Assembly: GCA_013151235.1 (NCBI GenBank)
Contig: JAADIO010000008.1
Coordinates: 3,627-67,626, forward strand
DNA from: Deltaproteobacteria bacterium
GTDB taxonomy: Bacteria; CG2-30-53-67
Length of the DNA stretch: 64,000 nucleotides
Direction: 5' to 3'
Positions 11,923-15,264 of the stretch are shown here, piece by piece. Positions within the stretch are counted from its first letter, which is position 1. Each line of letters opens with the position of its first letter. The position numbers and the translations under genes are program-made. Below the pieces are notes generated by a model. The model was not told where the DNA came from and ran no database searches. It saw nothing but the letters and a program-made list of their open reading frames with translations.

Positions 11923-11990
11923 TCATATACCAAGCATCAACTTCGCTGTAAAAAAATAAATCAACAGTCCGGTGATGTCCACGATGGTCG

Positions 11991-13316
11991 TCAGGGCCGG
12001 GCTCGCGGGCTCGCAACCACGGCCGGGTCCAGTTTCATGGATGTGGCAGCGAGGGGGAGGACTGCTCCGATCAGGGTCGCAGTCACCACCTGCAGGCTGA
12101 GTGCGATCGCGATGGCCGCCCCGACCTTTGCAAGGGTATAGCCCGCGGGCAGACCTGTCCCGTGGGACAGGAACATGACTTTGCCCCATGAAAGGATGCC
12201 CAGAACCAATGCAAGCATGACTGCAATCTTGAGTTCCTTCCAGAGCACTTTGAAAATATCCCGTAATGAGATTTCGCGGAGCGCCAGGGCGCGCACAACC
12301 ACCGTGGACGACTGGCTGCCCGTATTCCCGCCTGTGTCTGCCACCATGGGCATGTACAACGCAAGTATCAACATCTGCTTCAGGGTAGCCTCGAAGCTTC
12401 GGATGATCATACCCGACACAAGTTCCAGCGCGGCAAGACCGACGATCCAGTAAGCCCGGTTCCTAAAATGATTCCAGGATGACGTCTTCAGGTATACACC
12501 TACCTCATGGCTTCCGGTAATAGCCATGAATTTTTCCATGTCCTCGGTATGTTCCTGGGTGATGATGTCGATGGCATCGTCGTGCGTTATGATCCCCAGT
12601 AAGGCATCCTCGCTGTTGATCACCGGCAGGGCGATCAGGTCATATTTCTGGATTAACCTGGCTGCCTCCTCCTGGTCGTCTTCCACGCGGGCGAAGATGA
12701 CTTCTCTGTGCATGATCTCCTGAACAATGGCCTGCCGGTGGGCCACAACAAGGTCCTTCAGGGAAACGAATCCGAGCAGTTCGCGCCGCGGATTCACAAC
12801 ATAGGCGTAATAGATCGTCTCCCGGTCCGGGGCAACCTGCCGGAGATGTTCGATGGCCTGCAATGCGGTTAATCCGGGAGAGAGGGTAACGTAGTCGGAG
12901 GTCATGACCGCACCGGCCGTACCTTCCCTGTAAGCGGAAAGGCGGCGGATGTCTTCCCGCTCCGCCTGCGCCAGGGCCGGGAGTACGGATTCCCGGAGCT
13001 CCTCCGGCAGCTGATGAAACAGGTCCACCCGGTCGTCCGGGTGCATCCCGGTCAGGAGTAGAGCAATCTCACTGCGCGGCAGGGACTTGACCGTTTCCAC
13101 CTGGAGATCCTCGTCCAGATGACTGAAGATATCGGCACGAAGGGATGGGTCGGCATGACGAAGCACCTTCCAGATTTCTGCGGGCGTGAGTGCGGATATA
13201 AAATCTGCAACTGTTGCAGGGTGACCCGTATTACAGAAGTTTCGAAGGGATTTTGTGTCCCCGGCCGCAAGTATTTTACGAAGCTCAGGGAGAAGCAGTG
13301 GATTCCTGGTGTTCAT
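11991..13316 (-). CDS. mgtE: Magnesium transporter MgtE, frameshifted near the C-terminus
   Basis: MgtE is a homodimeric Mg2+ channel gated by its cytoplasmic domains. Visible parts are the N-domain (about 1-135), two CBS domains (VMTSDYVTLSPG; IMHREVIFARVED, about 140-265) and the membrane domain with MVADTGGNTGSQSS in the pore region. The reading frame stops after DPAVVASPRARP (441 residues). In another frame the expected last helix continues as LTTIVDITGLLIYFF and ends at 11923. An exact 8-bp tandem duplication (11999-12014) sits at the junction; removing one unit restores a 461-residue protein. The start at 13316 has GGAGGTGAA upstream. The gene lies downstream of a small leader ORF. It is either a truncated channel lacking its last helix or an assembly error. 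Confidence 0.88.
   Translation of the reverse strand: MNTRNPLLLPELRKILAAGDTKSLRNFCNTGHPATVADFISALTPAEIWKVLRHADPSLRADIFSHLDEDLQVETVKSLPRSEIALLLTGMHPDDRVDLFHQLPEELRESVLPALAQAEREDIRRLSAYREGTAGAVMTSDYVTLSPGLTALQAIEHLRQVAPDRETIYYAYVVNPRRELLGFVSLKDLVVAHRQAIVQEIMHREVIFARVEDDQEEAARLIQKYDLIALPVINSEDALLGIITHDDAIDIITQEHTEDMEKFMAITGSHEVGVYLKTSSWNHFRNRAYWIVGLAALELVSGMIIRSFEATLKQMLILALYMPMVADTGGNTGSQSSTVVVRALALREISLRDIFKVLWKELKIAVMLALVLGILSWGKVMFLSHGTGLPAGYTLAKVGAAIAIALSLQVVTATLIGAVLPLAATSMKLDPAVVASPRARP
11999..12014. repeat. 8-bp tandem duplication causing the mgtE frameshift
   Basis: GGGCTCGC occurs twice in direct succession at 11999-12006 and 12007-12014. Deleting one unit joins the two frames exactly within the conserved MgtE C-terminal sequence. 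Slipped-strand replication or an assembly artefact could create it. Confidence 0.85.
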
Positions 13317-13318
13317 GG

Positions 13319-13366
13319 TTCACCTCCATTTCAGCCGCAAAGAGAGCGCACACGGCCGGAGGTGAA
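13319..13366 (-). promoter_or_regulatory. Hairpin that can sequester the mgtE ribosome binding site
   Basis: In the RNA, UUCACCUCC (13366-13358) is perfectly complementary to GGAGGUGAA (13327-13319), which is the mgtE Shine-Dalgarno sequence two bases from AUG. Inside the loop GGCCG can pair with CGGCU, giving a second stem. The 5' arm starts about 11 nt after the stop of the small leader ORF. A ribosome terminating there would cover the arm, so coupling between leader translation and mgtE translation is inferred. Confidence 0.6.
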
Positions 13367-13376
13367 GGAGGGACGA

Positions 13377-13514
13377 TCAAGTGAGAAAGTGCCGTCCGGT
13401 CAGGTCGCCGGTCGCAAGGCGCGGGCATCGCGGTCCAGGGTCATCGGGTTCGTCTTGTATCAGTACAGAGTGACTGTGTTGCCGACAACTGTGACTGTCA
13501 TCCGATTTGCTCAT
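13377..13514 (-). CDS. Small leader ORF upstream of mgtE (45 aa, Asp/Glu/Pro-rich centre)
   Basis: A 45-codon frame starts at ATG 13514 behind a very strong ribosome binding site (AAAGGAGG, about 6 nt away) and ends 60 nt before mgtE. The first half is Ser/His/Gln-rich and the middle reads QDEPDDPGPRCP (about codons 20-31). Acidic and proline codon runs are known from MgtL-type leader peptides, which destabilise ribosomes at low Mg2+ and so report Mg2+ to downstream transporter genes. No homology to MgtL is claimed; the resemblance is in composition, position and the SD-masking hairpin that follows. It could instead be a short unrelated gene. Confidence 0.55.
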   Translation of the reverse strand: MSKSDDSHSCRQHSHSVLIQDEPDDPGPRCPRLATGDLTGRHFLT

Positions 13515-13569
13515 GGATTCCTCCTTTCCTCTTTCTAACAATCAGGAACAACATCGCTCATCCTCCCTT

Positions 13570-15264
13570 TCATGAAAGGATCTTCGCAACCGCTTCCTCC
13601 ACGGGGACCTTGGTCACATCCCCGCTTTTACGCTCCTTGATCTCCACGACCCCCTCCCTGAGTCCCCGGTCACCGATCACGATCCGGCGGGGGATGCCGA
13701 TCAGGTCGGCATCCTTGAACTTGAAACCGGGGCGTTCGTTCCTGTCGTCAAGGAGGACATCGACCCCCTTCTCCGTCAGTTCGTCGTAGAATTTTTCCGC
13801 CAGTTCGGTCACCTCCTTCGATTTCATGTTGAGGGGAAGAATCAATGCCGTGAAGGGAGCGATCGGTATGGGCCAGATGATCCCGTCGTCATCGTGGTTC
13901 TGCTCGATGGCGGCCGCGGCCGTCCTTCCCACCCCGATCCCGTAGCATCCCATGATCATGGGGCGGCTCTTGCCGTCCTCATTGAGGAAGGTCGCCCCCA
14001 TCGCCTCGCTGTATTTCGTCCCGAGCTTGAAAATGTGGCCCACCTCGATCCCCCGGGTGATCCGGAGCGTCCCGTCGCAACGGGGGCATCCATCCCCTTC
14101 CCGGGCGATCCGGATATCCTCGAAGGCGTCGGGCGCAAAATCACGGTTCACCCGTACATGCCGGAGGTGAAGATCAGCTCGGTTCGCACCCGTCACCCCG
14201 TCCGCAACGAAAAGGATCCCGTGATCGGCAATCACCGGGACACCGGTAAGTCCCACGGGACCGGAGAAACCGGAGGGACCGCCGGTCACGCGTTGTACGG
14301 TTTCTTCATCGGCCAGAGTAATTGTTTCCCAACCGAGACGGTTCTTCAGCTTGATCTCATTGAGTTCGTGATCTCCACGGACCAACCCGACAGCGGCATG
14401 CCCCTCCTCGTCCATGACGATGAGGGTCTTGATCAATCGCTCCGGTTCTATCTTCAGAAAGGCAGCGACTTCCTCAACGCTCTTTTTTCCCGGGGTTTCG
14501 ACCTCTTCAACCGCGTCCGCATCTCCGGAAGACTCTGCTGTTCCCTTCCGGATCTCAGCCCTCTCCGTGTTGGCGGCATAACCGCACGAATCACAGCAGG
14601 CCACGGCATCCTCTCCGGTCTCGGCCATGACCATAAACTCATGTGAGAAATTGCCGCCGATCGTTCCCGTGTCGGCCTCAACGGCCCGGAACGCAAGGCC
14701 GCACCGCTCGAAAATCCGGCAGTAGGCGTCGTACATCTTCCGGTAACTCTCGTCGGCGCCCGCCTCGTCCCGGTCGAAGCTGTAGGCGTCTTTCATAATG
14801 AATTCCCGTCCCCGCATGAGGCCGAACCGGGGACGGATCTCGTCGCGGAACTTCGTCTGGATCTGGTAGAGATTGAGGGGGAGTTCGCGGTAGGACCGTA
14901 CATTCATCCGGACGAGATCGGTGATCACCTCTTCATGGGTCGGGCCGATACAGAATTCCGTATCTTTCCGGTCGCGGACGCGAAGCAGTTCCTTCCCGTA
15001 GTGGTCCCACCTCCCGCTTTCTTTCCAGAGAGAGGCCGGCTGGACCGCCGGCATCAGAACCTCCTGGGCGCCGGCCCGGTCCATCTCCTCCCGGATGATC
15101 CGCTCAACCTTCCGGACCACCCGGTATCCGAGGGGAAGATAGGTATAGATCCCCGCAGCGAGTTTGCGGATCATCCCGGCCCGCATCATCAACCTGTGGC
15201 TGACGACTTCGGCTTCGGCAGGATCCTCCTTCAAAGTGGGAATGAGCAGTCTGGAATAGCGCAT
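13570..15264 (-). CDS. proS: Prolyl-tRNA synthetase
   Basis: Charges tRNA-Pro with proline in the cytoplasm (class II synthetase). It has the bacterial layout with an editing domain inserted in the catalytic core. Motif 2 is seen as [17 protein letters not shown] followed by MKDAYSFD. The INS/YbaK editing insert covers about 225-390 ([17 protein letters not shown]). Motif 3 is [17 protein letters not shown], and the anticodon-binding domain is C-terminal ([19 protein letters not shown]). The product is 564 residues from ATG 15264, which matches the usual MRYS start and has AAAGGA upstream; an in-frame start nine codons further up is less likely. It lies upstream of the mgtE leader on the same strand. 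Confidence 0.95.

Follow-up and report, generated by a model that had tools for sequence, protein, structure and literature searches.

In E. coli and Salmonella, acidic leader peptides are established sensors of Mg2+ that act through ribosome drop-off (PMC11282234, PMC8092293). The mgtL leader of mgtA begins with an acidic/proline stretch, EPDP, at which ribosomes drop off when Mg2+ is low, switching mgtA on; the mRNA forms mutually exclusive structures, and the output is Rho-dependent transcription termination (PMC11282234, PMC11552253). A study of EttA reports that acidic residues are effective if located among the first 30 of the peptide (PMC11282234). The mgtQ leader, an 8-aa ORF between mgtC and mgtB of Salmonella, works at the level of translation: its RNA folds either into stems 1:2 and 3:4, the latter holding the mgtB RBS, or into stem 2:3, and Asp2 and Glu5 favor 2:3 over 3:4, thus opening the RBS (PMC8092293). 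The corL leader of corA has two alternative folds, with translation of the corL uORF inverse to transporter expression, and is Rho-dependent (PMC11552253). Genes of the mgtE type are subject to Mg2+ control by the M-box (RF00380), which in mycobacteria can include uORFs and in M. tuberculosis follows an SD/anti-SD/anti-anti-SD logic (PMC12810186), and a predicted cis element that holds the SD and AUG in a stem, the SRC-65-1 mgtE motif, has been reported as a riboswitch candidate, in Thioalkalivibrio only (PMC11109978). In the openly licensed PMC literature, we found no paper joining mgtE with a leader peptide, a uORF, or ribosome destabilization in the present sense.

On the minus strand of the window (the whole 64,000-nt stretch of deltaproteobacterial DNA that was analyzed), the end of proS at 13570 is followed by a short ORF, a hairpin, and mgtE, laid out as follows:

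13520 to 13527, minus strand: SD of the leader ORF, AAAGGAGG, 5 nt ahead of its ATG, read from the sequence.
13377 to 13514, minus strand: leader ORF of 45 codons plus stop (stop codon 13379-13377), peptide MSKSDDSHSCRQHSHSVLIQDEPDDPGPRCPRLATGDLTGRHFLT (45 aa), with homologous leaders at 65/77 mgtE loci.
13494 to 13511, minus strand: acidic block of the N-terminus, SKSDDS (residues 2-7), which corresponds to the conserved DSDG/DDPG motif and is a putative ribosome-destabilizing site, its function inferred from MgtL and mgtQ (PMC11282234, PMC8092293).
13431 to 13454, minus strand: second acidic/proline motif, DEPDDPGP (residues 21-28), supported by the frequency of [DE][DE]PG in ORFs picked by SD strength.
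13393 to 13402, minus strand: strand 2, the ORF-tail segment UGACCGGACG, which could pair with 13375-13371 and 13365-13363, weakly in this copy.
13358 to 13366, minus strand: strand 3, the anti-SD UUCACCUCC, supported by sequence, MFE fold, and covariation.
13333 to 13357, minus strand: upper stem (arms GGCCG, 13357-13353, and CGGCU, 13337-13333) and apical loop of the SD-masking hairpin, supported by MFE fold and covariation.
13319 to 13327, minus strand: strand 4, the mgtE SD GGAGGUGAA, which pairs with strand 3, supported by sequence, MFE fold, and covariation.
11929 to 13316, minus strand: mgtE, with a frame shift near 12006 and coding in the other frame onward to 11929.

We posit that this leader is a translational attenuator of Mg2+ transporter genes in which three strands, namely the ORF tail (strand 2), the anti-SD (strand 3), and the transporter SD (strand 4), compete for pairing, and we put the chance of this at roughly two in three. 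When Mg2+ is sufficient, ribosomes would translate to the leader stop and cover strand 2, leaving strand 3 to pair with strand 4, so that the SD would be masked and expression would be low. When Mg2+ is low, ribosomes would drop off early in translation of the leader, at the acidic/proline stretch of the peptide; strand 2, now free and transcribed ahead of strand 4, would capture strand 3, and from the open SD MgtE or an MgtA-type ATPase would be made.

By mechanism, such a device would be a variant of the mgtL/mgtQ kind. It resembles mgtQ in its short ORF with early Asp/Glu residues, in a transporter RBS masked within a 3:4 stem, in a proposed alternative 2:3 stem that would free the RBS, and in a predicted action at the translational level; one copy, L212, likewise sits between mgtC, directly upstream, and an MgtB-like ATPase gene. 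However, whereas mgtQ has 8 residues and is described in enterobacteria, leaders of the window type encode 17-62 aa with DSDG or D[DE]PG, carry strand 2 in the ORF tail, and are found in about ten other phyla, for the most part ahead of mgtE; sequence homology between the two is not established, and we do not claim family membership by descent. An acidic/proline start is shared with mgtL, as are, on the proposed model, mutually exclusive mRNA structures, but Mg2+-dependent drop-off is only inferred for the window-type leader and its predicted output is SD masking rather than Rho-dependent termination. The corL leader would be alike in its two alternative folds and in uORF translation inverse to transporter expression, and differs in its Rho dependence, its fewer acidic/proline residues, and its gene. 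The M-box of M. tuberculosis offers the same strand logic, but the covariance models of the M-box and of Mg_sensor (RF01056) find no match here; more broadly, neither the window nor any of ten relatives matches an Rfam family at gathering score, and the window leader contains no credible sub-threshold match. The leader thus appears to lie outside the Rfam families, we found no description of it in the openly licensed PMC literature, and its relation to SRC-65-1 is not established.

The first-pass annotation of the window had described a 45-codon ORF with a very strong ribosome site upstream of mgtE, a perfect complement of the mgtE SD soon after the ORF stop, and a second stem inside the hairpin loop, and all three are borne out: the ORF and its SD are as listed above, the anti-SD follows the stop after a 10-nt spacer and pairs with the SD at 9/9 positions, and the MFE fold contains both the SD-masking stem and the upper stem. 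Its emphasis on the central DEPDDPGP stretch, which is indeed present, needs correcting: conservation of the acidic block at the N-terminus (residues 2-9) is no less frequent. The SD-masking hairpin is the dominant local fold, yet in the window sequence alone it is not beyond chance (z -1.54 for the 101-nt fold, with 14/200 shuffles equally good; z -1.96 with the SD strand fixed), and the case for it therefore rests on comparison with relatives. Structure is thus a local property, since the 281-nt leader folded in full gives nothing out of the ordinary (z +1.17). A check for tandem repeats was negative, and we found no sigma-70-like promoter just upstream of the window leader; judged by eye, several relatives have TTGACx...TATAxx upstream of theirs. 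Two other readings of the locus were discarded, the hairpin as an intrinsic terminator, as it has no U run, and an antisense ORF on the plus strand (13119-13538) that was mechanical and unsupported.

The naming of the downstream gene as mgtE stands: TIGR00400 (329 bits, cut-off 233) and matches to the MgtE_N, CBS, and MgtE domains agree, though an 8-bp tandem duplication (GCGAGCCC twice, tract GCGAGCCCGCGAGCCC, 12014-11999, minus strand) puts the last 26 codons out of frame, the remainder being coded in the other frame. Whether real (strain variation or a damaged gene) or introduced by the assembly, this duplication calls for caution with the window copy. A second MgtE gene in the same genome (G000:C33:52755-53957) is 33% identical to that of the window, and the hairpin model has no match elsewhere in that genome. 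The best MgtE in a genome of the same genus (G001) is merely 35% identical, while close relatives (60-77% identity, some 53-60%) lie outside the genus and family, in Planctomycetota, 'Deltaproteobacteria'/Desulfobacterota, Fermentibacter, Spirochaetes, Ignavibacteria, Acidobacteria, Hydrogenedentota, Aminicenantes, Ozemobacter, Marinimicrobia, and other lineages. By this distribution, the window mgtE looks horizontally acquired. A search of 98 genomes (own genus, family, and class, plus other lineages) with the window leader peptide returned only the peptide itself, which we ascribe to its shortness and to the apparent acquisition of the gene.

Comparison was made through the transporter. Of 77 distinct mgtE loci with sufficient upstream sequence (MgtE at least 51% identical), 65, from about ten phyla, have a homologous leader, whose N-terminus is acidic, M-x-DSDG or D[DE]PG, with typical starts MSDSDGSHSC, MNDDDGPCA, MDDPGGSCR, MHDSDEPGA, and MSKSDDPGS; in some leaders the acidic stretch is without proline, or acidic residues are few. 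As the curated leaders were partly selected on acidity, ORFs chosen by SD strength and start codon alone, with amino acids ignored, serve as an unbiased check. The ORF so picked is the leader in 64/65 loci, and its positions 2-9 hold 1.79 acidic residues on average, while ORFs in other frames have 0.78 there (p 2e-5). Of the picked ORFs, 31/72 start with DSD or D..G and 21/72 contain [DE][DE]PG; of those from other frames, 0/27 do either. Changes in N-terminal codons are mostly synonymous (83 vs 33; dN/dS 0.09), a ratio biased downwards since the pairs were selected for N-terminal identity. The loci thus fulfil the attenuator criterion of a conserved upstream ORF that could be translated, its actual translation being an inference. 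Of the criteria for an MgtL/mgtQ-type leader, they fulfil two, acidic/proline residues early in the peptide and a Mg2+ transporter gene downstream; the third, expression that responds to Mg2+ by way of drop-off, is inferred. The leader frame of L032 (Planctomycetota KatS3mg102), MNNSDGSHSC...LDDPGPQ, begins some 200 nt upstream and runs without a stop into mgtE, either through a frameshift or in a different layout. Short ORFs also lie upstream of more distant mgtE genes (L162, L167, L168, and L170 of Spirochaetes, with MgtE at 44-47%, and L144 and L145), with starts MEDGSCR, MEDGNCR, MEGGSCR, MDDGT, and MDDSSSHPR; they are possibly diverged versions of the leader.

The hairpin is likewise kept. 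Against shuffles of the upstream part that leave the SD strand intact, its mean z is -2.93 over 58 loci, across which the SD core has a mean pairing probability of 0.82, so that the loci fulfil the attenuator criterion of a hairpin masking the downstream SD. Across 15 sequences in a plain MAFFT alignment, pairing holds in 90.2% of cells, and 7/17 pairs carry two-sided, compensatory changes, values for pairing and covariation that 0/500 shuffles reach; when the partner strand is slid by one to three columns, pairing falls to 30-51%. The first-pass annotation had proposed looking for a conserved ORF and a covarying stem in relatives and had held that the absence of either would refute the idea; both are conserved in distant relatives, the stem with covariation, which supports its interpretation.

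Strand 2 is weak in the window. At many loci, the SD-side strand has a copy in the tail of the ORF (GGUGAAC, GGCAAACC, GGCAGAAC, and others; consensus (G)GUGAAC in relatives) that often begins 30-31 nt before the ORF end and is able to pair with strand 3; in Ignavibacteria the pairing segment takes in the stop codon itself (CACGGAAAUAA). The 2:3 duplex has z -0.81 +/- 0.18 over 55 loci and the 2:3 hairpin z -0.56 +/- 0.17; RNAalifold on 25 sequences picks exactly the helix (U/C)GAAC:GUUC(A/G), with two-sided changes in 4/5 pairs; in a 7-pair count, the paired-cell fraction is reached by 0/500 shuffles and the covariation score by 2/500; and ORFs fit their own strand 4 better than a foreign, different strand 4 (p 7e-4 and 1.5e-3). 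The reading frame of the copy is not constant, as L187/L188 show, and the copy so seems preserved as RNA. Overall, this comparative support for strand 2 is moderate: the mutually exclusive alternative hairpin is significant over the set, weak in the window, where it consists of UGA/UCA and, set apart from it, GGACG/CGUCC (z -0.6 to -1.5), and not dominant at equilibrium, where the masking hairpin is predicted to win at most loci with no ribosome present. With the ORF tail freed, the computed mean probability of an open SD rises to 0.20 from 0.13 (higher in 23 loci, lower in 4). The model thus needs co-transcriptional kinetics, with 2:3 forming before strand 4 is transcribed, and this capture is inferred.

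The same leader precedes a second, unrelated transporter. When the hairpin covariance model R1 was searched against 247 Desulfobacterota genomes, it matched, beyond mgtE loci, copies with leader ORFs such as MGDSDGSRSCNDMSQEHPSEEHDDPGS... and MENTAGENDDPHPRR... ahead of the gene for a magnesium-translocating P-type ATPase (TIGR01524; from partial sequences, E 4e-147 or better), and a search from the ATPase side, with reading of the upstream sequence, found leaders in 6/10 genomes, 4 of them new. In all, nine Desulfobacterota genomes have the leader before an MgtA/MgtB-type ATPase (L194, L197, L199, L206, L212, L223, L224, L225, and L229); those of L224 and L225 were recognized by eye only, the others matching the model. 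Where an R1 match scored under about 30 bits and had no leader ORF (L200-L205, L207-L211, L217), it was dropped as chance-like, and downstream of well-scoring copies we found Mg2+ transporter genes only. At L229, the unmasked SD would serve the ATPase directly; at five loci, L212 (G100:C23), L194, L197, L199, and L206, it would serve a short ORF or an in-frame extension, and as the short ORFs (about 20-47 codons, with peptides that are not alike) end at or overlap the ATPase start, translation there may be coupled. The L212 genome, in which an MgtC-family gene lies just upstream of the leader, also has an mgtE copy (L035). In this Desulfobacca locus, the leader ORF, about 130-160 nt before the hairpin on the minus strand, ends after ten codons (MNDSPGSLIA), and the leader may be broken or constitutively on. 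In L224 and L225, a promoter-like TTGACT...TATAAA lies so near the leader ATG that the ORF would be almost leaderless.

The sharing of one leader by two unrelated families of Mg2+ transporters argues strongly for Mg2+ as the signal and is the strongest reason to assume it, although the response itself is inferred. The direction of control, which the first-pass annotation considered unpredictable from sequence, is now favored by the conserved third strand in the ORF tail to be drop-off = ON; it nevertheless remains an inference, in the absence of expression or ribosome data. The predicted sign, on at low Mg2+, suits an importer.

Other arrangements of these parts can be imagined. The spacing of the leader stop from the hairpin (5-13 nt), short and fairly constant in most loci, the 43-73 nt from stop to mgtE start in all but a few, and the lack of an evident terminator at the hairpin are also what positive translational coupling would call for, with ribosomes that finish the leader opening the hairpin base and re-initiating at mgtE, so that low-Mg2+ drop-off would turn the gene off. 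We consider this unlikely: a terminating ribosome is expected to reach the lowest pairs only and not the SD core, the conserved strand 2 would be left unexplained, and the sign would be physiologically odd for importers. The three-strand architecture might be correct and yet operate by stalling instead of drop-off, or respond to another signal, such as an amino acid or ABC-F/EF-P activity. Acidic/proline motifs do pause ribosomes and respond to EttA (PMC11282234), and Ser/His/Cys residues are conserved after the acidic block, but the exclusive association of well-scoring copies with Mg2+ transporter genes leaves this a long shot.

Two further schemes dispense with the interplay of ORF and RNA. 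If the ORF encoded a small protein with a role of its own, such as regulating the transporter or joining it as an accessory subunit, with the hairpin as a separate constitutive brake, an N-terminal motif conserved across phyla with mostly synonymous changes would be accounted for; the product, however, varies from 17 to 62 aa, has no Pfam match, and ends in a tail that is not conserved as a peptide (0 synonymous and 7 non-synonymous codons between L187 and L188) but is constrained as RNA in varying frames, so we regard the idea as highly improbable. Least credible to us is an RNA that binds Mg2+ or another divalent ion directly, with an incidental ORF: the M-box is a precedent at Mg2+ transporter genes and the hairpin covaries, but beyond the lack of Rfam matches at gathering score in the window and ten relatives, there are two simple alternative hairpins only, with no aptamer-like junction, and the ORF start, stop, and acidic motif are conserved.

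The three-strand attenuator responding to ribosome drop-off remains our preferred reading, and the leader and its hairpin are probably a widespread switch that raises magnesium uptake when magnesium is scarce, with the Mg2+ response and direction inferred. We lean, with less assurance, toward the broader view that these leaders form an undescribed family of Mg2+-sensing leader-peptide attenuators, moving with its genes through about ten phyla and used by MgtE as well as MgtA/MgtB, and that intrinsic ribosome destabilization is a general bacterial Mg2+ sensor, not an enterobacterial peculiarity. If this is true, the natural variants of the peptide (DSDG, DEPG, DDPG) would form a large set for finding nascent chains that destabilize ribosomes at low Mg2+, the control of MgtE in many uncultured bacteria would be explained, and the ribosome itself would be a widespread sensor of Mg2+, including in deep, unrelated phyla.
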